DNA from: Petrosia ficiformis
Taxonomy: Eukaryota; Porifera; Demospongiae; Haplosclerida; Petrosiidae
Direction: 5' to 3'
NCBI GenBank assembly: GCA_947044365.1
Contig: OX345639.1
Coordinates: 1,313,001-1,377,000 of the forward strand
DNA: 64,000 nucleotides
Shown here: positions 42,176-62,233 of the stretch, piece after piece
Numbering within the stretch: position 1 is the first letter of the stretch
Layout: the number at the start of each line of letters is the position of its first letter
Program-made: the position numbers and the translations under genes
The notes under the pieces: model-generated
What the model was told of the DNA's origin: nothing
What the model saw: the letters and a program-made list of their open reading frames with translations, nothing else
The model's database searches: none

Positions 42176-42364
42176 ATAGGAGTTCCAGTGAAAGTTTCTG
42201 ATATAAGTTATGGTAACTACTAAAATATGATATTTATATTGTTGCTATGGATATAATAAGATCTGTAACATTATTCTAGTAGTTAAACAAAGCTATAATA
42301 TTACTATGGATACAGTAGTTACAAAGCTTTATTGCTATGGATATAATATGCTCTGTATGCTATT

Positions 42365-43795
42365 TAGTTATAATAGAAAATTAAAAATAGTATAAATAGC
42401 ATTAAAGCATTGATAGTATGCTATGTAGTAAGAAGGGTGATTGAATGTATAGATAGCATAAATAGCATGGTATTTAATTATAATAGTACATTAAAAATAG
42501 TATAAATAGCATTAAAGCATTGATAGTATGCTATGTAGTAAGAAGGGTGATTGAATGTATAAATAGCATAAATAGCATGGTATTTAATTATAATAGTACA
42601 TTAAAAATAGTATAAATAGCATTAAAGCATTGATAGTATGCTATGTAGTAAGAAAGGTGATTGAATGTATAAATAGCATAAATAGCATGGTATTTAATTA
42701 TAATAGTACATTAAAAATAGTATAAATAGCATTAAAGCATCGATAGTATGCTATGTAATAAGAAGGGTGATTGAATGTATAAATAGCATAAATAGCATGG
42801 TATTTAATTATAATAGTACATTAAAAATAGTATAAATAGCATTAAAGCATTGATAGTATGCTATGTAGTAAGAAAGGTGATTGAATGTATAAATAGCATA
42901 AATAGCATGGTATTTAATTATAATAGTACATTAAAAATAGTATAAATAGCATTAAAGCATTGATAGTATGCTATATAGTAAGAAGGGTGATTGAATGTAT
43001 AAATAGCATAAATAGCATGGTATTTAATTATAATAGTACATTAAAAATAGTATAAATAGCATTAAAGCATCGATAGTATGCTATGTAATAAGAAGGGTGA
43101 TTGAATGTATAAATAGCATAAATAGCATGGTATTTAATTATAATAGTACATTAAAAATAGTATAAATAGCATTAAAGCATTGATAGTATGCTATGTAGTA
43201 AGAAGGGTGATTGAATGTATAAATAGCATAAATAGCATGGTATTTAATTATAATAGTACATTAAAAATAGTATAAATAGCATTAAAGCATCGATAGTATG
43301 CTATGTAATAAGAAGGGTGATTGAATGTATAAATAGCATAAATAGCATGGTATTTAATTATAATAGTACATTAAAAATAGTATAAATAGCATTAAAGCAT
43401 TGATAGTATGCTATGTAGTAAGAAGGGTGATTGAATGTATAAATAGCATAAATAGCATGGTATTTAATTATAATAGTACATTAAAAATAGTATAAATAGC
43501 ATTAAAGCATTGATAGTATGCTATATAGTAAGAAGGGTGATTGAATGTATAAATAGCATAAATAGCATGGTATTTAATTATAATAGTACATTAAAAATAG
43601 TATAAATAGCATTAAAGCATCGATAGTATGCTATGTAATAAGAAGGGTGATTGAATGTATAAATAGCATAAATAGCATGGTATTTAATTATAATAGTACA
43701 TTAAAAATAGTATAAATAGCATTAAAGCATTGATAGTATGCTATGTAGTAAGAAGGGTGATTGAATGTATAAATAGCATAAATAGCATTAAAGCA
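42365..43795. repeat. 110-bp satellite, 13 copies with higher-order order
   Basis: GTACATTAAAAATAGTATAA recurs at 42486, 42596, 42706 and onward at exactly 110 bp. Diagnostic variants (TGATAGTATGCTATGTAGTA, CGATAGTATGCTATGTAATA, TGATAGTATGCTATATAGTA) recur in an ordered pattern. Confidence 0.95.
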
Positions 43796-44777: not shown

Positions 44778-47700
44778 CTAACGACGTCTTAGTGCCCTTG
44801 CATCCCTTTCCAAGTTACTTTTGACTGTTGCAGTCTGTCTTTTGCGTTGTTCATCTCTCCTTTTCTCTTCTGGACCAGCTTCAACTAGGTAAGGTAGATA
44901 CTTTTCACTATCATTTGTATTGCTTATGTCTCTCCTAGCAACAAAGTCGTGCTTCATTTTCAGATGGCTTACATGAGCGTTTACTGTCACAGCCTTTCCT
45001 CGATAGTCATATTCACAAAACCGACACTTCATTTTGCAACGATCTGCGAATGTTTTACAGTGAACCTCTGCTAAACATCTCTGTCTCCATTCTGTGGCTG
45101 TGGTAATAGGTGGTCCTCTTGGCAAAGGAGGGATTGGAGAGGCACTTTGGCGAATAGCTCTTCTTCGCTTCGTTGCTGGGGCGATGTTGATCTTATCCTC
45201 GATTGCTTCAATAGCCTCCTGTACCTTTTGAAAACCCTCTACTAATCCCTTATTCATATTTATTACCTCCTTCGCTAATAACTTTTCTCGCAGCATTAAA
45301 CTTTCCACTCTATCGTCCACAATTAAAAGGGACTCGTTTAGTGTTGAATTTGAAGTAACAACTTTTTCTTCCACTTTCCTAACATCTGTAACTATTGTGT
45401 TTAGCGTTTGGCGCATTGCTTGCACTTCCCCATCTAAATTAGTGAACCTTCTCTCTATCCCACTCACCAATGTAGTGACCATTGTAATCAGTGCGTTCTT
45501 ATCCTTCTCGGTCTGCTCAAACTTCTCATGCAATGTTTGTACTTCTTTCCTCAAGAGTGCTATCTCTGAATCAGTACCACGATCTTCATGTTCTCCATGG
45601 AGTGTGGAAACATTTCTCACCATATATTGCTCTGTGAGCTCAGAACATCTGTTCTCTAAGAAGATGTGCACTTCACATAGACAACGAAGTGCAGCCACCT
45701 TCTCCTCCACAGACCATTCGTGGGACTCCACACACTATAGTGAAATAGTTAGGTACAGTATAATTAGGTATAGTACAATATTGTTAGACATAGTACATTA
45801 CAGTTAGGTACAGTTAGATACAGTATAGTACAGTATAGTACAGTACAGTATAGTTAAGTACAGTAAGTTAGGTACAGTATAATACAATATAGTACAATAT
45901 AGATAGGTTTAGTGCAGTGTTGTATAGTTAGGTATGGTACAGTGCAGTACAGTGCAATGAAGTTAGGCACAGTTAGGTATGGTATAGTACTGTACAGTAT
46001 GTACTGTACAGGTGGAGTTGTTACAGTACAACACAGTTAGGTGCAACATAGTGTAGTACGCTACACTGCTGAACAGTACAGTAAACGGTAGGTACAATAC
46101 AGAAGTACAGTACAGTATAGTATACAATATAGTACATTATGGTACTGCACAGATTTCTGGTATGTCTTTGCTGTTGTCTCTTCAAAGTAGCTTTTCACTA
46201 CCTTTGTTAGTGTAAACAGGCCCTCACTACTACTAAATTACTGTGTTCTATTGCATATATACAGTACTATTTTTAACTATAGTATTCTGTACATGTACAG
46301 AGCTGCACTGTAAGGTAATGCTGTATTTTATACTACTATTCCAGATAAACAAACCTTAAGGGCATTCTCCACCATGCATTTGATCACAACATATGGTGCT
46401 AGAACAGGACTACCAGTATCAGACATAACTCCATGTACTGCTTGGATGGCACTGATGGCATTGTTGTAATTACTGCTACCCAGTTGAACCAGAGTGGTGA
46501 TGAAGGAGCTGAAAATTTAAAAGAAAAACAAGTTGTAAATTATTAACATTACATATATAATACTATAATATATTCATTTATAAATGTATTTGTATAATTG
46601 TAGTATGATGCCTCAGCCCTCATGTATTTGCCAGTAAGAGCTATAGCTGGTTTAGTAGTTTGAATTGATGGATATTGCCAGAAATGACGAAGCCCTTCAT
46701 TTACTAAATAGGTTTTCCTAGTGCTATGAAATAAATAAATATAGCATTGGATGTAAAGTAGCTGTGGTGGCATCATACTATAATAATGTTGAGTGGGTGT
46801 ATCAAAAGAACAACCCCCACTGCTAAGTAATAAGTTTGGATCACATGGTTAAATAAATAATGGCAAGAAATCACTTTTACCCATTCCACATATACAAATT
46901 AGTTGATAACACTTCAACAACACTTCAATAATAATACATATAATAATAAGATTGAACACAAATGTGACTTACACTGTGGGATCGTACGAAGAAGTAGGAA
47001 TGAAGGGGCTGCTAACGGAAGCTTGAATGGGGCTGCTAACGGGAACTTGAATGGGGCTGGTAACCTGAATGATACTGGGACTGGGAACTTGAATTGGACT
47101 GGGAACTTGAATGGGAGAACGAGTATTTGCATCATCTATTGGATGGATACATAATATTTATGAAAGTAAGAACATATACCGGTAGTCTGTAAATGATGTA
47201 TATAATTGCGAACACTACTAGATTTTTGATAGATACAAACTATTTAATAACGTGACATCACCAACCAAAAAAGAATGCACCTGTCAACTATTGGAACTAT
47301 CTAAATTACTATCTATTATAAATACATGTATATATTAATATATATATAATGTATTTAGGACTTTTTTAAACCTTCACCCATCCACCTCTGTTGTACCATC
47401 ATTCTATACACCCATATAGAAAAGGAAATTATAAACTGTATCTATATAGTCATTCTAACTGAAGAAGGCCTTTGGGCCGAAACATTCCGATATATGTAAT
47501 AACCTTTATGGAATTATTTAATAACAATAGAAAGAATGGTTATCACAATGGATAATATACTATAGGAAAGATCAGTATAGAAATCTAATCACGACGATTT
47601 TAAAAATAATTAATTAATTTATATGTTATATACATGTAACAACTTACCATGACCGGCTAGCAGCGAAACATCGCTAGGTTGAGGTTGAGGTTGAGATTGA

Positions 47701-50700
47701 GGAGGAGGGGAATCCTGTCCTATAATAAATAGAAAGAATTAACAATATAAATAAACTTCTATGAATGATATAATATGAATTTTATTACAATAAACACATG
47801 TACCTCCGAAACCAAATTAATATTAAATTATTAATCAGCTAATCGAATATTGAGTTATATTCATCAATAAAAAAACTCACCTCTCCTTGATGGGGAAGAT
47901 GACGAGAAAGAGGTAGTTGCCTCCAGGGCGCGCCCTATGAATTAATAAACAAAGAATATTTATCTTTAAAAATTTTATGAAGGTATGGACATTAAATTAT
48001 TGAAAACTGTCACAATGCTTTCTTCAATATTGTGATTTGAGTATAATTATTATTAATACAAAGTACTTATAGAAAATGTTATTTCAAATAGCATTGTAAT
48101 ATATTCATATAAACCCAGTACTATTCAATAATCTATTATCATAAATCTTTAGCTAACTAAATTTAAAAATCATAAACAATACTAAATAATAATTATAATA
48201 GATATAAAATTATAATGTACGACTTACTCTTTGGAGAGGGTCCAGATTGAGGAAGGGAATCCTGTCCTAAAATATATAGAAAAAATAAACAATGTAAATG
48301 AACTTCCATGAATGATATTATAATATGAACATCATTACTTCAAAAGTAGAAACCAAATTATCTTAATATTAAATTTTTAAACAGCTAATTAATTCAGTTC
48401 ATCAAATATATTGAAATATATAAATGTTATATTAATAAAGTTTCTCCGAACAAAATATAATAATAATTACTAATGTAGTAAGGGTATCTGGCCTTCACTA
48501 ACTGCAAAGTCGAGTGAATCAGTATAAAATATTGCTTTTTAAAAGTGAACGAGAACAATATATGTTATATTATTCATCAATAGAAAAACTAGTGTTGTAT
48601 TATATTCATATAAACCCAGTACTATTCAATAATCTATTATCATAAACCTTTAGCTAACTAAATATAAAAATCATAAACAATACTAAATAATGATAATTAT
48701 AATAAATATAAAATTATAATGTATGACTTACTCTTCCTAGAAGGTCCAGCCTGAGAAGGTCCTGCCTGAGAAGGTCCTGCCTGAGAAGGAGGGGAATTCT
48801 GTCCTATAATATATAGAAACATAATGAACTATGGTATATATTATAATGATCTTTTATTTACAAGTGAAAACTTCAATAATTATTGAGAGAGTATATTATA
48901 TTATTATATTTTAGTTTGACAAACTAACGAGGTAATTAATTATGTTTATTAACATGTTATGTAGAATGCTACCTATACTACATTATGATACATAAATATG
49001 GTGTTATTGTGACTACTACACATAATTGTAATATTACAAAACTGTATTAAATGATGTCTCATAATAGGGAGACCAGTCTAGTGTAATAAGCTAGATATTT
49101 CACATATACTTGAGGCTTCATTAACGGCCGCTTCTTCATGTAAATGTCCAAAGTTTTAAATCACAGTACATGTATATAATACAGAATAGTAAAGAAAATT
49201 AAATGAAAGGGATCTGAGTTGATGTACATGTTTTTACTTTCTAAAGTAACATTTAAAATAATTTATGACAATTTTAAAGATTAATGACTAACCCAATCTT
49301 CGAGTACCGGAGCGGGTGACAGGAAGAGGTGGAAGAAAAAAACTGTGGGAGCAGGTGACAGGAGGAGCAGGAGAGACAGTGCCAGACTGCCCTATGGATA
49401 AAAAAGAATATTTAACAAAAATTTTAATAATTATATATAATTTTTACATATGAAATTTGAAAAGTGATTTCAATATGAATGATAAGTAGAGTAAGGTAGG
49501 TCATACATTTGTAACTTTGAAAATGCTATTTAATGAACTATAGAAATCATGTTACTCGAAAAACAAGATTTGGTTTATTATAATTATGAAAAGTGTAATA
49601 GACTAACTTAATTAAAATATTAGAAGTGGAAAGCAATAATTGCAAAAGTTTTAATAATAACGTCATTATAATTGTTTACTTGAGTTGTAATATTATTGAC
49701 TAAATCCAAAACAATGTATTTGCAATAATACATATAGAATTATTATTAATTGATTTTAATGACTCACTTTCCCCAGAAGGGCCGACCGGCGGTAGTTGTG
49801 GAGAAGAAGGGCCGACCGGCAGTTGTTGTTGAGGAGGGAGGTCCTGCCCTATATTATATTAAAAATAATTAATTAGTTATTGTATGAAGATATGAATGTT
49901 ATATGATATATATGAACATCGTTTCAATATAAAAACCTAAAAGCACAATAACAAATTGGGATGGTACCTTAGTAACAAAATTAAACTAACCACTTCCATA
50001 TAACAACCCTACATAAGTATAAGTTTCCTATGAACCAATAAACAAAGAATATTAATCTTTCAAGATTTAGTTAAGGTATGGACATTAAATTATTGAAAAC
50101 TGTCACAATGCTTTCTTCAATATTGTAATTTGAGTAGAATTATTATTAATACAAGGTACTTATAATATAGAAAATGTTATTTCAAATAGTGTTGTATTAT
50201 ATTCATATAAACCCAGTACTATTCAATAATATATTATCATAAACCTTTAGCTAACTAAATATAAAAACCATAAACAATACTAAATAAATAATAATAATTA
50301 TAATAAATATAAAATTATAATGTATGACTTACTCATTCTAGAAGGTCCGGCCTGAGAAGGTCCTACCTGAGAAGGTCCTGCCTGAGAAGGTCCTGCCTGA
50401 GAATGAGGGGAATCCTGTCCTATAATATATAGAAACGTAATGAACTATGATATATGAATGGTATATATTATAATGATCTTTTATTTACAAGTGAAAACTT
50501 CAATAATTATTGAGAGAGTATATTATATTATTATATTTTAGTTTGACAAACTAACGAGGTAATTAATTATGTTTATTAACATGTTATGTAGAATGCTACC
50601 TATACTACATTATGATACATAATTATGGTGTTATCATTATTTATAATATAATGTATAATTGTGACTACTATACATAATTGTAATATTACAAAACTGTATT

Positions 50701-53700
50701 AAATGATGTCTCATAATAGGGAGACCAGTCTAGTGTAATAAGCTAGTGTAATAAAATATATCACATATACATATATACATATATATGTGTATATGCACTG
50801 TGGTTTGAGGCTTCATTAAGGGCTGCTTCTTCATGGAACTGTTCACTAGATTACATCAAGGGCTGCTTCTTCATGTAACGATTCACTAGATTAAGGGCTG
50901 CTTTTTCATGGAACTGTTCACTAGATTACATCATGGACACAGTATAATTGTTAGGGTTGTATTACTATAAATAGTGGGTAAGTTGTGGTTTTGTTGCTGT
51001 TTATAATATACACGCCCAAATATACATATCGCCAAAACTTTTAAATCATAGTACATGTATATATACAAAATAGTAAAAAAAATTAAATGAAAGGGATCTG
51101 AATTAATGTACATGTTTTTACTTTCTACAGTAACACTTAAAATATGACAATTTTAAAGATTAATGACTAACCCAATCTTCGAGTGTGGGAGTGGGTGACA
51201 GGAAGAGGTGGAAGAAAGAAAGTGTGGGAGCTGGTGAAAGCAGGAGGTGGAGGAGAGACAGTGCCAGACTGCCCTATGGATGAAAAAGAATATTTATATA
51301 ATTAACAAAAATTTTAATAATTATATAATTTATAATAATAATTATATGAAATTTGAAAAGTGATTTCAATATATAAGTAGAGTAAGGTAGGTCATACATT
51401 TGTAACTTTGAAAATGCTATTTAATGAACTATAGAAATCATGTTACTTGAAAAACAAGATTTGGTTTATAATTATGAAAAGTGTAATAGACTAACTTAAT
51501 AATTAAAATATTAGAAGTGGAAAGCAAAAGTTTTAAACACACCACCATTATAATTATTTACTTGAGTTGTGTTATTATTGACTAAATCCAAAACAATGTA
51601 TTTGCAATACTACATATAGAATTATTATTAAATGATTTTAATGACTCACTCTCCCCAGAAGGACCGACTGGCGGTAGTTGTGGAGAAGGGCCGACCGGCG
51701 GTAGTTGTTGAAAAGGGCCGACCGGCGGTATTTGTGGAGAAGAAGTGCCGACCGGCGGTTGTTGAGGAGAAGGGCCGACTGGCGGTAGTTGTGGAGAAGA
51801 AGGGCCGACCGGCGGTTGTTGAGGAGAAGGGCCGACCAGCGGTAGTTGTTGAGGAGGGAGGTCCTGCCCTATATTATATTAAAAATAATTAGTTAGTTAT
51901 TCTATGAAGATATGAATGTTATATGATATATATGAACAATATATAAAAACCTAAAAGCACAATAACAAAATTGGGACGGTACCTTAGTAACAAAATTAAA
52001 CTAACCACTTCCATATAACAACTCTACATAAGTATAGCTTCCCTGTGTTTTATTTATTCTATTGTATTTTTATATTTGTGTAGGGTTTGTTAATTTTGTT
52101 GCTAAGGTACCATCCCAATCTTGTTCCTGCGCTTTTTCTGTTTTTATATCCTCATATACTCTTTCATTTAAAAAAAATGTTTTTGCTATTTGTACAATTG
52201 ACACTACTACATTACATACATAACTCTTCAAACATTATTGTATTGTAGTAGTCATATATATTGTATTTTGTTGTAGTAGTCATATTGTATTGTGTTGTAG
52301 TAGTCATACTGTATTGTGTTGTAGTAGGGGTGGCTACCCCGTACTGGCAGTAGACAATTAGATGTAGTTATACTAATTAGAATTAAATCTGTTCAGGGCT
52401 AAGTAGTCATACTGTATTGTGTTGTAGTAGTCATACTGTATTGTGTTGTAGTAGGGGTGGCTACCCCGTACTGGCAGTAGACAATTAGATGTAGTTATAC
52501 TAATTAGAATTAAATCTGTTCAGGGCTAAGTAGTCATACTGTATTGTGTTGTAGTAGTCATACTGTATTGTGTTGTAGTAGGGGTGGCTACCCCGTACTG
52601 GCAGTAGACAATTAGATATAGTTATACTAATTAGAATTAAATCTGTTCAGGGCTAAGTAGTCATACTGTATTGTGTTGTAGTAGTCATACTGTATTGTGT
52701 TGTAGTAGGGGTGGCTACCCTGTACTGGCAGTAGACAATTAGATGTAGTTATACTAATTAGAATTAAATCTGTTCAGGGCTAAGTAGTCATACTGTATTG
52801 TGTTGTAGTAGTCATACTGTATTGTGTTGTAGTAGGGGTGGCTACCCTGTACTGGCAGTAGACAATTAGATGTAGTTATACTAATTAGAATTAAATCTGT
52901 TCAGGGCTAAGTAGTCATACTGTATTGTGTTGTAGTAGTCATACTGTATTGTGTTGTAGTAATCATACTGTATTGTGTTGTAGTAGTCATACTGTATGCA
53001 TTGTGTTGTAGTAGTCATGTTGTAGTAGTCATACTGTATTGTGTTGTAGTAGTCATACTGTATGTATTGTGTTGTAGTAGTCATGTTGTAGTAGTCATAC
53101 TGTATTGTGTTGTAGTAGGGGTGGCTACCCCATACTGGCAGTAGACAATTAGGTGTAGTTTTATACTAATTACAATTAAATCTGTTCAGGGCTACAAATG
53201 CAACAAAATGTATAGTTTATACATGTAATATGCTACAAATACATTTATTTAACTATTAATTAATATAAATAGCACTAAATATTATATTTATAATAAGTGA
53301 AGACTTACTCCCTCCTGATGGGCCAGCCATTGGTAGTCCAGCTACAGATTGCACCCGAGGAGAGCCGGTTTGGATGGAATGAAGAGGTCCTATTATGAAA
53401 TAAAATAAAGAATTTTAATAACTCTTTATGAGTGCGTAAATAGCTAGCTAATCATGTGATAATCATATGATGCATTCACTTTACCAAACAAACAAAACAA
53501 GTTTTATAACAATAATTTTCAAAGACATAATGTATCGGTACAAATGTACTTAAAAGTATATTTTTTTCTTGTTGTGTTTCTACTTTGTATGTCAGATTTC
53601 AATCTATTGCATAATTGAGTTACATTAACCTTATCTATACACTATATTACATATAAAGTCATTACAATCTAATTTTGAGGTCACTAACAGTGATACATTA

Positions 53701-54773
53701 TATTATACTTTCTACTTGCACAGTTAATTACAAAGTTGAATAAGTTCGTAACTACATTCCGTTATACTTATGTGTATGAAAAGTATAAAATATCAAGAGA
53801 ATTTATATAATAGAGACTTACTCTCCTCGGGTAAACCACCCACAGGAGAAAGTCCAGGAGATAATAAGGTGGGACGACCACGAGGAGAGACAACAACCAT
53901 TGGAGTTGAGTGAAGTCCTGTAAGAATATAAAACTATAATTATTTGTGGAGAGATTAAATTTCTTCATTATTAGTTTTGTCTGTAGTAGAATAAGGCAGT
54001 GTTCTAAGTCCAAGTGTAATAATTGTAATTACAACAATTACAATATTATTTAATAATTATAAATACTTACTCTCCTCAGATGGCATCGTGGACTTTCTCC
54101 CGGGGTTGGTTTGCTTTGGTGCTATGAATAGTGGATAAACAGATTTTATAATCATTACACAATTACATGAATACATTCTACATACATGTATTATATTATA
54201 TATTATAGTAGTTATTGAACTTGATCCAAGGAGAGAGGCGATGAAATAAAGTTGGTTTAGGGTTTATGTTTATGGTCCAGGGTTTAGTATTTAGGGTGTA
54301 AAACTGATATTAGATGAATTTTAGTTCCCATATATTATATATATATATATAATTATATATATATATATATATCTAATATATATGTATTTTAACAGTCTCT
54401 TTCATCAAATCAGAGATACAATTAATATTATACTCACGAGGTCCGGGGTTGCTCTCCACATCTCCACAGAGAAGGAGAAGGAGAAGCAGGAAGAAAGAGC
54501 GGCTCAGCCGTGGAGAGGATGAAGTTGAAGAAGAACGGCGGGCAAGGTATCTTTGGTGACGGGGGGGTTTTGGGATAGGTGGAGGGGGTGAGAACAGCAT
54601 GGAAGAAACAGAAGAAGAACAAGGGTGGGAGATCCAGAGAGCAACCACCAGGACCAAGAAAGTAAGCTCTATAATAATAAAATAAAGAATAAAAGTTTCT
54701 GCAATTTTATTATAAATGCATGAAAAGTATATAAAAAATAATTGTATACATAATACTCACTGTAGCTGGACAT
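44778..54773 (-). CDS. Signal peptide-2A-Pro/Ser-rich-coiled coil-BED-like zinc finger protein, ~18 exons, ~900 aa
   Basis: Exons: 54773-54761, 54668-54438, 54121-54071, 53917-53822, 53389-53309, 51868-51650, 51273-51172, 50419-50333, 49848-49768, 49391-49293, 48803-48732, 48266-48228, 47934-47881, 47719-47648, 47135-46973, 46723-~46570, 46508-46355, 45734-44778. Exons 1-2 encode a signal peptide (MSSYKLTFLVLVVALW), a Ser/Pro segment, a poly-Leu stretch and CGDVESNPGP. The proline codon is the last full codon of exon 2. Exons 3-14 are all multiples of three with phase 1-1 ends and encode Pro/Ser/Gln-rich linkers. The last exon (318 codons) has a long coiled coil, a KRRR basic patch, and Cx2C followed by HxxHxxxxH, a BED-like zinc finger. 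The exon at 46723 has no donor that fits the next acceptor, so its 3' end is open. Inference: skipping at 2A releases a cytosolic or nuclear protein starting with Pro; failure to skip sends the whole chain to the ER. Confidence 0.72.
45735..46150. repeat. GTACAGTATAGTTAGGTACA low-complexity repeat
   Basis: Degenerate 5-10-bp TACAGTATAG/TTAGG units in the intron between exons 46508-46355 and 45734-44778 of the 2A gene. Confidence 0.7.
47459..47502 (+). ncRNA. Hammerhead-like core remnant (CTGAAGA...GAAAC)
   Basis: CTGAAGA (47459), a GGCC-TTTG-GGCC hairpin, then GAAAC and ACAT/ATGT pairing with TA follow the order core - stem II - core - stem III of a hammerhead ribozyme. Flanking bases do not pair to make stem I, so it is at best a degenerate copy. 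Similar CTGAAGAAGGCC...GCCGAAAC strings are common in retroelement-derived sequence, including Penelope-like elements. It lies in a 2A-gene intron on the antisense strand. Confidence 0.25.
48732..50030. repeat. Duplicated three-exon block, copy 2 (element + exons A2, B2, C2)
   Basis: Exons 49848-49768, 49391-49293 and 48803-48732, their introns, and a truncated inverted-repeat element (49927-50030) correspond in order to the block at 50333-52150. Intron strings such as CAAACTAACGAGGTAATTAA (about 48920 and 50548) and GATTTGGTTTATAATT-like runs are shared. Confidence 0.85.
50333..52150. repeat. Duplicated three-exon block, copy 1 (element + exons A1, B1, C1)
   Basis: Exons 51868-51650, 51273-51172 and 50419-50333 plus introns. 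Exon A1 is longer than A2 (219 vs 81 nt) because a nine-codon PPVGPSPQ-type repeat expanded to seven units. Confidence 0.85.
51941..52150. mobile_element. Inverted-repeat element, family A-like copy in the 2A gene
   Basis: Termini ATATAAAAACCTAAAAGCAC and GCGCTTTTTCTGTTTTTATA are inverted matches, and the inner arms (GACGGTACCTTAGTAACAAA / TTTTGTTGCTAAGGTACCAT) extend the stem. About 210 bp with no ORF. The truncated copy at 49927-50030 sits at the same place relative to exon A2. Confidence 0.7.
52225..53215. repeat. 127-bp tandem repeat with nested ~27-bp GTAGTCATACTGTATTGTGTT units
   Basis: GGGGTGGCTACCCCGTACTG recurs at 52327, 52454, 52581, 52708 and 52835 (127 bp apart) and once more, degenerate, near 53120. 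Between them are GTAGTCATACTGTATTGTGTT units whose number grows in the right part. It fills the intron between exons 53389-53309 and 51868-51650. Confidence 0.92.
54439..54468 (-). other. 2A ribosome-skipping peptide (CGDVESNPGP)
   Basis: Codons for C-G-D-V-E-S-N-P-G-P follow a run of leucines. The motif D(V/I)ExNPG|P is the complete 2A consensus, and the upstream LL..CG context also fits active 2As. The ribosome would fail to form the Gly-Pro bond, releasing an ~80-aa N-terminal piece. The exon ends one base after the final Pro codon, so the whole signal-plus-2A unit is one removable module. Confidence 0.85.
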
Positions 54774-57262: not shown

Positions 57263-60200
57263 TTACGTATTAAATGATTTGTAGCTTCTTCGGTGATAAC
57301 TTGAGCTAATTGATGTGAGCTCCTCTCTTGACATGATCAGATCCGGAAGTTCATCTTCACTTCTTTGCTTCTTTCTCCAGCACTTGTGAGTAACACAAAT
57401 AGCAGTGACTAGGAATAATATGGCAATTGGAATGTATGCTAAGAACAGTTGGATGTATGTTGCAATTGAGAGTAGGTATGCAAATGGAGTACTCTGTGAT
57501 TCAAAATAACGAAAGTATGTCAATGTGTTTATAATCAACATGTTTGTGAATATTACCGTGTCTATATGATTGTGTATACTATTACGATATGGTTGTGCCC
57601 ATGTATGTAATGCCAACATGAATATCAGCAAAAATTGAACAATAGTAAAGACCTCCAGTCTGGAATTAACAATTGCAAATGTAAAGTCTGGAATTGAACG
57701 ATATATCAGATAAAATCCTGCAAAGTAACGATAGTTGTCTTTAAAACATCCTTGTAAACTATCCAGAAACGGCCTTATAGAATTAAATTTACTGCAGAAA
57801 TATCTCACCTTTCGCCAATCAAAAACGTTTTCTGGAAGCAATTTGTAGCTGATGGGTTCAATTATCAGAAAAAGTGGAGGGATAATAATTAACGTTGTGA
57901 GAAAAAACAGTGCAAGAAAAGCATACCCAATGTGTTCCTTACCCATGAATTCAAGATCTCCCATTCGAAAAACTCGTGGCGTTTTCATGTATCTGTCTCC
58001 TGCTCCATGTAACCATGCCATATTAAGGATCCTGTAACATGCCCGATTGCATTGTGAATAACAAAGAACAAGAAATGCAGACAACCCATTAATCAGGGAA
58101 GAAGACCTAGTGATTCGAGTTTGAAAGCATATTAGTTGTAACTTGTAACAACAGCTGCATCTCATTATGAAAACAAGTGTAATTACCAGAAAAAGTGCAT
58201 ACAAAAGCGTGACATACTTGATTGATGCTATTTGAAGGAAATTTGCATTCTGGAAAAGACAGAATGAAAGATTTTCCAAATGAAACAAATCCAGGTTAAA
58301 AGGGCTGTATACCAAATGTAATACATCCAACATGTAACTTTGTATTTCTGATATAATTAAAACTCCTCCATTAGCCGATAACGAAAGGGAATCAATCATT
58401 TGAGCAAACAGGACAAACCCGTTCAAATAACCTGAAGTAAAATTTACATGTAAAATAATAATGACTGTGAAGATAATGGTTAGGGGTATAATTTCTGAGA
58501 TGAGGTAAAACAGCAGGCCATATTTGCAGTTTTTGTTTGTGCCACATTTATAACGATAAGAATGATAAAAGACAGAATGACCTTTGATGCATCTTCCACA
58601 AAGAACTCCAGTGCGATTTTGCTCAAAACAAATTGTTTTGTCTAGTTGTTTGGGATCTTGTGGTAACGTTATGTGTAAGTTTTCATTGTCAGAGTGTTCT
58701 TTGCAAAATCCAAGTGGACAAGTGGCTGTAGTTAGGTGTGAAGCAGTATACTTAGATTTATCAGGATATCCAACCCAGAACCCAACATTAAGCCAAGCTT
58801 TAAACTCGTTGTTGTCACAAGCAAATATTGCATTGTAGTCAGAAGTTGCACTTGAAGCCGCACATGTGCAGTTTTTATGTGTCTTATCATAAAGAAATCC
58901 AGGAGGGCACTCAGACACAGTAATATTCAATTTAAGGCTGATGTTGTGAAAACTAACAGTCTCAATTTTTAGAGTAGCTGTATCACCTGGTTTCCCAAAA
59001 ATGTTTAAGTAATTATCAGCTGTTTGAGCAAACTCCAAATGAATGGAAGAGTTTTCATTATTCTGTACAAATGCTCTGAGCAGAGGATTATTTTGTTCAT
59101 TTCCAAGTTCATCTTTCATTGTTACCGGAAGTTTAAATGGCTTACCAGGGATAACATTCAGACATAGATGTGATTCTTTAGGGACAAATACAGTTCCTTC
59201 TGTTTCTACACTATCATTTAGTGACCTATTTGCAAAAGTAAAATTAGCTGTACAATTGAGGCTTTCGTTAACATATTTGTTTGATAAATCAGCCATGTTA
59301 CAATTTCGAACACAAGGTAATAAAGAGGAAACAAATATGGAATTTCCTCGTTCGTGGGCCTTATTTCCTTCAAAATAAAATGTTGAAGTGACTTTTCCAA
59401 AATCGGGATTTGTATCAATATATTGTATGAAGCACAGTCCAAATGTTGTTGATGATAGCTTATCTGTAGAAAAAGCATAAATAGCACCACCGTTACTGAA
59501 TGCACTGTTGTTAGTAAACTTTAATATGCTGTTGTTACCCACTTGGACAGCAGAAGCTCCTATTAGGGATACAGCACCACCAAAGATGCCTTCGTTTTCT
59601 ATAAACTCTACAGTTGTTTCATTTGTTACTCGTATTATGCTGTCCAAAACGTAGATACCAGAACCAAAATTGTTTTTAAAACTTACTGAAGATTTAAAAT
59701 TAACCGTGAATGATTTAATATACAATGTTCCAGCACCTTCTATCCCTTGCTTTAATTCACCAGTACCTCCATATGATTTTTCAATAATAGTGTTGTTTAT
59801 GAAAGAGCAATATGTGAATTCAGGTATTGGAAGAATATTTGATGAAGCCGCACCATAAGACTGAGGCCCTATCATTACAGCAGCACCAAAAACAGCATTA
59901 TTATTAATCCAAGTACAATTAATGAAATGGATTGTGTTGTTGACATAATCTTCACTTGAACTTGAAAAGAAAGTGACTCCTCCTCCAAAATATGCAGCAT
60001 TATGATCCATGAACACATTCATCAACATTATTGTATTGTTCTTAGGTTTTGGGGCATCTCTTGTCTGAATTGGAAATTCAAATCCTATGTCAAAGGCACC
60101 TCCTCCACTGTTCATTGCATTGTTGTGAGAAAAGGCTGAGTTTGTAAAACTAATATGATTTAGTTTTGGAGAATCTTGGAACTGTACAAGCACAGCACCG

Positions 60201-61249
60201 CCATAGCCATACTCATTTACTGAGTTATGCATGGCATGTATATTGTCTATATTGAACGTGTTGTTAAATGCATTACCCTTGATGAAGATACACAATGCTG
60301 CCCCACCTTTTCCTATGCCCCTAAAACTATTTCTCATATGTTGTTGACGTTTCGTATTATTAGGAAGTGGAAATGATGTAACTATGTTGTTACAGAAGGA
60401 ACAGTTATTTATATTATAATGGCTGTTATTAATACAGGTTGGACATACAAGAGGAGGTTTGAACCAATGCTTAGAACAATATGTGAATTCAATATATAAT
60501 CCCCCACCTCCAGAGTACTCCTTCACCTCTCGTTCAGGTACTCTATTTCCTATGAAAGACGTATTGACAATATTATTCGTACCAAAGCAGTCAAACATGG
60601 ACAACCCTTTTCCTATGCTTTCAAAAAACTTAGAATTCTTCACAGTCACATTATCGCAGTTTGACATATATACTGCAGATCTGAAAAGTTGAGGAGGATC
60701 TGCTAAACTTTCATTCATACTTGTACTGTTGTGAATAACTCCACAGTTAGCAAAAGTTATATCGGTAATCTGTAGACCTGACACCGATATGAAAGTCAAT
60801 CCAGAACTACTGCCTTTTGAGAAACTACTGCAGCTAATGACAGTTTCATATTTGTTTGAACGAAAAGCAATTCCCAGTTTATTCTTAACGATGATGTTTT
60901 CTTGAAGGTGGATTGTACTGTCAAACAAAAGAACAAGGGTATTATTAGTCAGATTTTGAACAGTTTCCTTACTAAGATTAGTAGCATTAAAATCGCAATG
61001 TGCCATTTTGTAGTCATTTTTATGATGTGTGGAAATACAAATGATTTCATTCCAGCCGGTTACGCCAATGATTAGACAAACTGCAATGCTTAGTAGCAAG
61101 TAAGACTGCATAGAAGGATTATACATCATGTTGTGTTGAACTCCAGTACAACTAGAACACGACTTCAGCACACCGATAATAGTGAAAGATGTTATCAACT
61201 GTAGAAAATTCCTTATATGGTGTGAATTTATAGCTAGTGTGTAATACAT
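57263..61249 (-). CDS. Large beta-helix ectodomain/multi-span membrane protein, intronless, 1328 codons
   Basis: One open frame. The more likely start is Met47 (MQSYLLLSIAVCLIIGVTG, signal peptide), although Met1 also leads a hydrophobic stretch. Residues ~70-660 carry repeats of the GGA(V/I/L)xx-F/I..N..-NNS type (GGGGLYIEF, GGAVLVQF, GGGAFDIGF, GGGVTFFSS, GGAVSLIG, GGAIYAFS), the signature of a right-handed parallel beta-helix like polymorphic outer membrane protein repeats, with many N-glycosylation sites. A Cys-rich segment follows (CPPGFLYDKTHKNCTC, ~775-790; GVLCGRCIKGH, ~885). Residues ~910-1300 contain seven to eight hydrophobic spans, with the motif HTWAQPYRN between two of them. The tail is short, basic and then acidic. 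Proteins of this layout are numerous in sponges and some protists; the function is unknown, and adhesion or sensing is inference. No frameshift or stop. Confidence 0.8.
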   Translation of the reverse strand: MYYTLAINSHHIRNFLQLITSFTIIGVLKSCSSCTGVQHNMMYNPSMQSYLLLSIAVCLIIGVTGWNEIICISTHHKNDYKMAHCDFNATNLSKETVQNLTNNTLVLLFDSTIHLQENIIVKNKLGIAFRSNKYETVISCSSFSKGSSSGLTFISVSGLQITDITFANCGVIHNSTSMNESLADPPQLFRSAVYMSNCDNVTVKNSKFFESIGKGLSMFDCFGTNNIVNTSFIGNRVPEREVKEYSGGGGLYIEFTYCSKHWFKPPLVCPTCINNSHYNINNCSFCNNIVTSFPLPNNTKRQQHMRNSFRGIGKGGAALCIFIKGNAFNNTFNIDNIHAMHNSVNEYGYGGAVLVQFQDSPKLNHISFTNSAFSHNNAMNSGGGAFDIGFEFPIQTRDAPKPKNNTIMLMNVFMDHNAAYFGGGVTFFSSSSEDYVNNTIHFINCTWINNNAVFGAAVMIGPQSYGAASSNILPIPEFTYCSFINNTIIEKSYGGTGELKQGIEGAGTLYIKSFTVNFKSSVSFKNNFGSGIYVLDSIIRVTNETTVEFIENEGIFGGAVSLIGASAVQVGNNSILKFTNNSAFSNGGAIYAFSTDKLSSTTFGLCFIQYIDTNPDFGKVTSTFYFEGNKAHERGNSIFVSSLLPCVRNCNMADLSNKYVNESLNCTANFTFANRSLNDSVETEGTVFVPKESHLCLNVIPGKPFKLPVTMKDELGNEQNNPLLRAFVQNNENSSIHLEFAQTADNYLNIFGKPGDTATLKIETVSFHNISLKLNITVSECPPGFLYDKTHKNCTCAASSATSDYNAIFACDNNEFKAWLNVGFWVGYPDKSKYTASHLTTATCPLGFCKEHSDNENLHITLPQDPKQLDKTICFEQNRTGVLCGRCIKGHSVFYHSYRYKCGTNKNCKYGLLFYLISEIIPLTIIFTVIIILHVNFTSGYLNGFVLFAQMIDSLSLSANGGVLIISEIQSYMLDVLHLVYSPFNLDLFHLENLSFCLFQNANFLQIASIKYVTLLYALFLVITLVFIMRCSCCYKLQLICFQTRITRSSSLINGLSAFLVLCYSQCNRACYRILNMAWLHGAGDRYMKTPRVFRMGDLEFMGKEHIGYAFLALFFLTTLIIIPPLFLIIEPISYKLLPENVFDWRKVRYFCSKFNSIRPFLDSLQGCFKDNYRYFAGFYLIYRSIPDFTFAIVNSRLEVFTIVQFLLIFMLALHTWAQPYRNSIHNHIDTVIFTNMLIINTLTYFRYFESQSTPFAYLLSIATYIQLFLAYIPIAILFLVTAICVTHKCWRKKQRSEDELPDLIMSREELTSISSSYHRRSYKSFNT

Positions 61250-62233
61250 TTGATAACACTTGTTGTGTAAATATTTTCTTTTAGTGAAACGATCATTGTA
61301 CTATACATAAAATACTAAGTTATTGTCACCATTTTGAAAACTGAGAAAATTGCAAGAAATGATATTAATATTGTTTATTGAAGATAATAATCATATTGAA
61401 ACAAATACTTTACTTGTTTTCTAAACAATAAGTTCCCAAAAGAAAACAATGAATTTGTGGTGACTGTAAAATAAACTTAATAATTATTAGTGGTTAATTA
61501 AATTTAATACTAACCAGGAAGGGAAATACCCAACCAGAAGTTAAACAGGAAATGTGGTCATAAAAATACTGTCCCTTTAAATTCCAAACAAGATTCAATT
61601 CCCTAGCTTTTCATTCCAGAAAATGTTAGTTTCCATGCACACATGTATACATTACATCGTCATGACGATTTCATGGGATTATTAAATGAATGTAATTAAC
61701 ATTTAGAGAAATAACCATGGTTTTCAGTATTACATATAAAAATCATTAAATATACCAGCTGGGGATGAAATTCTCGATACGTGAATCATCCACAAAAAAA
61801 TGTGAAGGATAACAAGATATAATTATAACATAAATACAATTTTCAAGCAAATGAATACACATAATTACATACTAAATGAGGTAAATATTTATTTTTAATT
61901 TTTCAAAGTTGTATACAGGATTTAATTATATTCTCATAAATACAATGTCATGTATGTGTTGTATACTTATAACGAGGGTACACCAGTTACTCTATCACCA
62001 CTTGTGGCATTTCAAAATACATTAAATCTGAACAAAAATTATATTAATACTATTATACACAAAAAAAGGAAAAAAACAATATAATTATATGAACAAAAAC
62101 TTTCGTCTACTGACTTTCACACGTTTATTTTGATATGAGGTAATGATATTCAGACAGATGGATCAATGGATAGACAGACAAATGAGACTAGACAATAGCA
62201 ACAGCATTCATATATATATATCATTAAATAACA
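61250..62233. other. Intergenic between beta-helix gene and coiled-coil gene
   Basis: AT-rich upstream region of the beta-helix gene and 3' flank of the next gene. No coding exon, tandem repeat or clear TATA/CCAAT element recognised. Confidence 0.45.

Follow-up and report, generated by a model that had tools for sequence, protein, structure and literature searches.

Why should a protein that looks nuclear begin with a signal-like sequence and a ribosome-skipping motif? The question arises from a locus on the minus strand of the window, by which we mean the whole 64,000-nucleotide stretch of DNA analysed here (C4:1313001-1377000 of the sponge Petrosia ficiformis). The initial annotation read a signal peptide and a 2A motif at the front of a zinc-finger protein, and held that such a protein makes sense only with a switch by which most ribosomes skip while unskipped chains enter the ER. 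Our follow-up, in which genome searches covered the 191.2-Mb assembly of 29 contigs, confirmed the observation and partly supported the interpretation. Its sequence-level basis consists of the leader itself, an in-phase model reaching to the finger exon, an intact 2A core with L-rich surroundings, and a resemblance to the leaders of retrotransposons.

The precedent invoked was the sea urchin. Passages of PMC4981915 report NLR proteins of Strongylocentrotus purpuratus with an N-terminal 2A-like signal of 26 residues, for which both skipping and targeting are reported; this N-terminal signal splits a reporter between the cytosol and the secretory pathway. According to part of PMC12846837, 2A in nature is used mostly by viruses and only rarely by cellular genes.

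An intact 2A motif ends a spliced leader of 81 residues

Splicing 54773-54761 to 54668-54438 on the minus strand reproduced the signal-like start, Ser/Pro stretch, leucine run and terminal CGDVESNPGP that had been read there, in a stop-free frame of 81 residues with GTGAGT donors and a TTATAG acceptor. Exon 1 (54761..54773) provides the ATG start, M1-Y4 and one further base, ending in phase 1. The remainder of the leader is encoded by exon 2 (54438..54668), which is 231 nt long and in phase 1 at both ends. A TATATAA lies at 54897-54891, with no ATG between it and the start codon, which has A at -3.

From N to C terminus, the leader consists of a hydrophobic signal-like start, a Pro/Ser linker, a PPRH basic patch, a leucine run, and the 2A with its intact GDVESNPGP. 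The signal-type hydrophobic core, TFLVLVVALWI (residues 7-17; 54631..54663), has a mean Kyte-Doolittle hydropathy of 2.86, and judging from hydropathy and layout we regard the N terminus as a putative signal peptide. Use of an alternative in-frame acceptor at 54698 would add 10 residues to the hydrophobic part. The patch, KPPRHQRYLARR (residues 38-49; 54535..54570), resembles that of retrotransposon ORF1 leaders, and its PPRH occupies the positions 38-41 residues ahead of the skip Gly. The leader thus has two separate hydrophobic stretches, and its signal core ends 63 residues before G80.

The leucine run and the 2A together form LLLLLLLCGDVESNPGP (residues 65-81; 54439..54489), with the skip site at G80/P81. 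The octapeptide (54462-54439) reads DVESNPGP in the spliced frame; the D(V/I)ExNPGP consensus is complete, as had been claimed, and the sequence also fits the pattern (D/G/C/N)(V/I)ExNPGP. DVESNPGP is encoded just once in the six frames of the whole window. L-rich upstream motifs ending in (A/S/C)G are described in part of PMC12846837, and the LLLLLLLCG before the D fits that description. The first residues past the skip site are PPPK, and the three prolines might slow or stop the 'Go' step. A chance origin of the motif is ruled out by the genome-wide counts: D(V/I)ExNPGP is encoded 205 times (a complete list of 48+92+65 sites), while the reversed pattern is encoded 0 times.

The leader joins in phase to a predicted gene of 17 exons

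That the leader fronts a nuclear-looking protein was borne out by an in-phase join over the full model. Together with 15 more GT-AG exons, the leader gives 17 exons, 16 introns and a product of 856 residues with a Pro-rich middle, a coiled-coil-like stretch, KRRR and a Cys/His finger. Exons 3-5 (53309..54121, comprising 54121-54071, 53917-53822 and 53389-53309) and exons 6-14 (47648..51868, Pro/Gln/Ser-rich) are symmetric in phase 1. The spliced model continues through exons 15-16 (46355..47135, comprising 47135-46973 and 46508-46355) to exon 17 (44778..45734), which carries the coiled-coil-like stretch, KRRR at residue 727, a CxxC/HxxHxxxxH finger and the stop; all are on the minus strand. 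Exons 3-14 are low-complexity and Pro/Ser/Gln-rich, and their phase agreement is partly by construction, because most of them were chosen by a rule requiring open, symmetric exons.

Within this series, exons 6-8 and 9-11 form a duplicated block (51868-48732, minus strand). Identity between its two halves is 91-93% in exons and 96-97% in introns, and exon lengths differ by multiples of three only (138, 3 and 15). The length differences and the exon/intron contrast hinted at coding and fast change; the contrast is unclean, because identity in the 200 bases ahead of exons 6 and 9 reaches just 89%.

Three other features of the window may be recorded here. One tandem array lies within intron 5 (52275-52961; 127-bp unit, 5.4 copies, 99% matches) and another at 42357-43788 (110-bp unit, 13 copies, 97% matches). 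An intact frame of 1345 aa occupies 57263-61300 on the minus strand, with a Beta_helix match just at the cut-off and a C-terminal half that is hydrophobic by eye.

What kind of protein is it? At the cut-off, the whole 856-residue model matched no Pfam family, BED included, and PHD finger and endonuclease likewise gave 0 matches anywhere in it. NACHT and LRR were absent among its five sub-cut-off Pfam matches. Profile matches below the cut-off included WHIM1, DUF713 and DUF7310 among others, and PDB matches such as catenin were sub-threshold. The KRRR patch and the finger described initially stand, and the coiled coil does so by eye, but membership in the BED-type fingers was rejected: no BED profile matched, and the likeness is by eye only. 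The best finger profile was zf-WIZ, at 14.6 bits against a cut-off of 27.

A protein search with exon 17 returned two relatives besides its own record. P0006 and P0007 are 63% and 59% identical over 88% of the query (69% and 67% in a multi-protein alignment), and the Cys/His residues of the CxxC...HxxHxxxxH finger are invariant in all three proteins. Both relatives could belong to a different assembly, either of this sponge or of a related one. In the genome, exon 17 matches ten places, one being the window itself. The Ka/Ks of the finger region was 0.24-0.29 in five of five comparisons with copies (four on C3, one on C18; 80-93 codons), comparisons that are not independent because the copies are related to each other, and several of these copies carry frame breaks. 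Ratios for the leader were set aside, since they ran across the intron or left the reading frame. The finger ratios point to constraint on that region. Overall, we judge the leader to be real, and the gene that carries it appears to be real as well.

A proposed order of targeting and skipping

On balance, we favor the view that the 2A of this 17-exon gene should separate, at G80/P81, an 80-residue leader from a 776-residue protein that is Pro-rich and carries the coiled coil and finger, with targeting as follows. Part of PMC2978324 states that 30-40 residues occupy the ribosome exit tunnel. In a ribosome at G80, the nearest 30-40 residues would fill the tunnel, and residues 1 to ~40-50, the whole signal core among them, would already be outside. 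Given where the signal core ends, targeting could therefore begin before the skip: the exposed core could bind SRP, and the leader would then be delivered to the ER as a small product in its own right, either secreted or membrane-bound. Most of the finger protein would be synthesized apart from it, as a chain of the cytosol or nucleus.

Would skipping then be complete? According to passages of PMC2978324, 2A can be inhibited by the very translocation that a signal drives, and in signal-bearing chains the same effect can come from residues 28-48 ahead of the skip, which lie in the ribosome-translocon junction. In the window leader these residues are PPPIPKPPRHQRYLARRSSST. The PPRH/basic patch would be at the ribosome-translocon meeting point at the moment of the skip and is a candidate element for setting the skip ratio. 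Skipping may not succeed in a chain that the translocon holds, in which case a full-length fusion would enter the ER. The reported inhibition, taken with the early exit of the signal, is therefore why we propose a mostly separate finger chain and a minority of full-length ER protein.

The claim that most ribosomes skip and that the unskipped chains are those that enter the ER goes too far on this account. It was copied from a one-stretch module, in which, we infer, the signal would still be inside the tunnel at the skip; here the signal core ends far ahead of G80, and translocation can inhibit 2A (passages of PMC2978324).

Perhaps the 2A simply strips the leader? In that case nearly all ribosomes would skip, the leader would be a by-product or a small secreted peptide, and there would be no meaningful ER form of the finger protein. 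Four upstream motif classes, one of them L-rich, were all active in reticulocyte lysate, at ~93% to almost 100% (in the part of PMC12846837 available), and for a downstream product with KRRR and a finger a nuclear fate is natural. However, signal-bearing chains can inhibit 2A in cells despite good cleavage in vitro (passages of PMC2978324). We consider simple stripping a possible but rather unlikely account.

The leader resembles the ORF1 leaders of retrotransposons

A search of the genome with the leader found 13 places: the window, six copies on C3, three leaders of retrotransposon family A (L003, L004 and C3:4736809, in L062) and three of family B (in L061, L063 and L064). Within family B the 2A core is kept in L063, and reads GDIESNAGP in L061 and GDIESNSGP in L064. 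In L004 and L063, the two family copies scanned for these domains, the leader frame runs on into a PHD finger and an endonuclease frame lies downstream. We take this arrangement to be that of APE-type non-LTR elements; work attributed to Odon in 2013 is said to place 2A sequences in ORF1 of such retrotransposons.

How close is the likeness? We compared middle parts, that is, leaders without the signal and without the last 20 residues. The window leader scored above all shuffles against family A (0/10000 for L003/L004, 0/10000 for P0003, and 0/5000 in an earlier run). Its match to family B was weak, the score being reached by 228/5000 shuffles, and its tie to that family thus rests on the order of elements. 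Families A and B did not match each other (520/5000 shuffles reached the score). The PPRH/PPHN motif that opens the basic patch starts 39-41 residues before the skip Gly, and the last residue of the motif lies 36-38 residues before it, in all five leaders measured: the window, three of family A and one of family B (four PPRH, one PPHN). The patch at this near-constant distance is a concrete site to mutate.

Six family copies share 26-27 of the 27 nt of the 2A stretch; in the exon immediately ahead of it, identity drops to 44-70%. We dropped this as proof of selection on the peptide: all six copies match the exact search pattern, silent sites of the stretch are equally unchanged in them, and the first 40 intron bases past the 2A are 88-95% identical in three of the six.

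These relatives weaken the argument that a signal peptide on a nuclear-looking protein makes sense only with a switch. A similar leader is found on retrotransposon ORF1 frames that encode PHD fingers, so the leader could instead have been inherited from a mobile element or exchanged with one. In its passive form, the leader would be a remnant of a retrotransposon ORF1 start turned 5' exons, with a 2A that maybe works chemically and has no selected role. The order of elements equals that of the ORF1 leaders of both families, and the middle match to one of them is significant. The C3 copies of the leader are also broken: all six, at C3:2.0-2.3 Mb, have either lost the 2A core or suffered a break in the leader frame, and two share the core GNVESNHEP. 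In the window gene, by contrast, signal core, linker, leucine run and 2A all stand in one frame with the finger exon, and we regard a passive remnant as unlikely.

Finger copies lie in the same part of C3 (1.95-2.30 Mb), rearranged and broken, with leader and finger pieces close together on the same strand. It is improbable that exons 1-2 form a short transcript or element of their own, with no splicing to the finger gene, a reading that the low complexity of the middle exons and the C18 finger copy (no 2A in the 18 kb analysed there) would suit, but that the agreement of phase and splice sites at 16 introns opposes, as do the adjoining leader and finger pieces on C3, though these possibly come from one duplicated block.

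2A motifs are common in the genome and often precede NLR-type genes

Within 6 kb downstream on the same strand, 67 of the 205 2A sites have a NACHT domain and 12 a Helitron_like_N domain; each count fell to 0 after a strand flip, and 126 sites have neither domain in that range. Counted by NACHT domain, 103 of 249 candidates were scored, and 67 of these 103 have a 2A site within 6 kb upstream on the same strand, again 0 after a strand flip. The 67 sites fall on C10 (38), C3 (18), C2 (5), C1 (4) and C9 (2). Because the motif occurs at 205 sites against 0 for its reverse, and two-thirds of the scored NACHT domains (67/103) have one upstream, we conclude that 2A leaders are common in Petrosia ficiformis, many of them ahead of NLR-type genes. 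The NLR-type genes with 2A motifs just upstream are possibly a bigger finding than the window leader. A separate NACHT cluster at C10:1.63-1.67 Mb (6 of the 103 rows) has 0 2A sites on that part of the contig.

Loci on C1 and C3 showed leaders that follow the pattern MIDxxQWRxxIGxW...GD(V/I)ExNPGP, and a 2A-NLR frame was read in L065:2111-3678. Beside the 2A-NLR genes, the frame at L065:284-1414 matches SEFIR weakly (19.0 bits against a cut-off of 23) and includes a hydrophobic segment. QWRxxIG leader loci continue into a Death match (five frames scanned, one above the cut-off), ankyrin repeats (L029) or NACHT (L065). Among the loci examined, other 2A frames are those of retrotransposon ORF1 and, in L018 and L021, frames with DUF6570. 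The QWRxxIG start is common to NLR/Death/ankyrin-type loci and to frames running into CxxC stretches, with 0-9 of 2000 pairwise shuffles reaching the score; the groups compared were L010, L012, L016, L020, L035 and L038 against L022-L024, L026-L029, L032, L033, L036 and L065. L021 is like L035 after the 2A, and has DUF6570 and, 2.5 kb downstream, a Helitron_like_N domain. By these alignments, the QWRxxIG leader is a second 2A leader common to host genes and mobile elements.

The window leader is not of this type. Hydropathy was profiled for one QWR leader, which, unlike the window leader, lacks a hydrophobic core at its N terminus. The middle part of the window leader scored 12-25 against four NLR/Death/ankyrin-type and two Helitron-type leaders. 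Five of these six scores were well within the shuffles, and the sixth was reached by 13/2000.

Taken at its widest, our reading would make the leader a mobile targeting switch that retrotransposons and host genes have traded with each other, in which the patch would set the skip rate, ER engagement would decide between one protein and two, and recruitment would be genome-wide, including at least 67 NLR-type genes. We offer this wider reading tentatively. A genome that has 205 core motifs, 67 of them a short way ahead of NACHT domains, together with a host gene whose leader is retrotransposon-like, would make the acquisition of skipping by cellular genes testable. The same sponge set makes it testable whether ER engagement regulates ribosome skipping.

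Comparison with known systems

In the parts available of the open-licence literature on 2A with sponges, NLRs, retrotransposons and cellular genes, no sponge 2A leader was found. The main text of a Dysidea NLR paper contains none of '2A-like', 'NPGP' or 'skipping', and '2A-like' in the sponge paper PMC5890393 is another protein's name, not ribosome skipping.

Viral StopGo sequences with an L-rich upstream motif, as described in part of PMC12846837, share with the sponge leader the canonical core octapeptide and an L-rich run ending in CG. The sponge 2A differs in that a signal-type core precedes it and in its setting, the front end of an animal gene with introns. The ORF1 leaders of L003, L004, L062 and L063 come closer: signal-type core, PPRH/PPHN patch, leucine-rich run and CGDIESNPGP follow in the same order. 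In L004 and L063, however, the leader reads in one open frame into the PHD finger, with the endonuclease downstream, whereas the window gene has introns and neither match.

The sea-urchin NLR signal (PMC4981915, in passages) was an apt parallel. There, too, an N-terminal D(V/I)ExNPGP and a targeting signal precede a protein expected to be cytosolic, and a dual fate is proposed. The sea-urchin signal and 2A are one stretch of 26 residues, whereas the sponge signal core is separate, in a leader of 80 residues; and the sea-urchin 2A stands on NLR genes, whereas the sponge protein has a coiled-coil-like stretch and a finger, without NACHT or LRR. Judged against open-licence papers, we provisionally regard the sponge leader as a new form of the N-terminal 2A signal idea.
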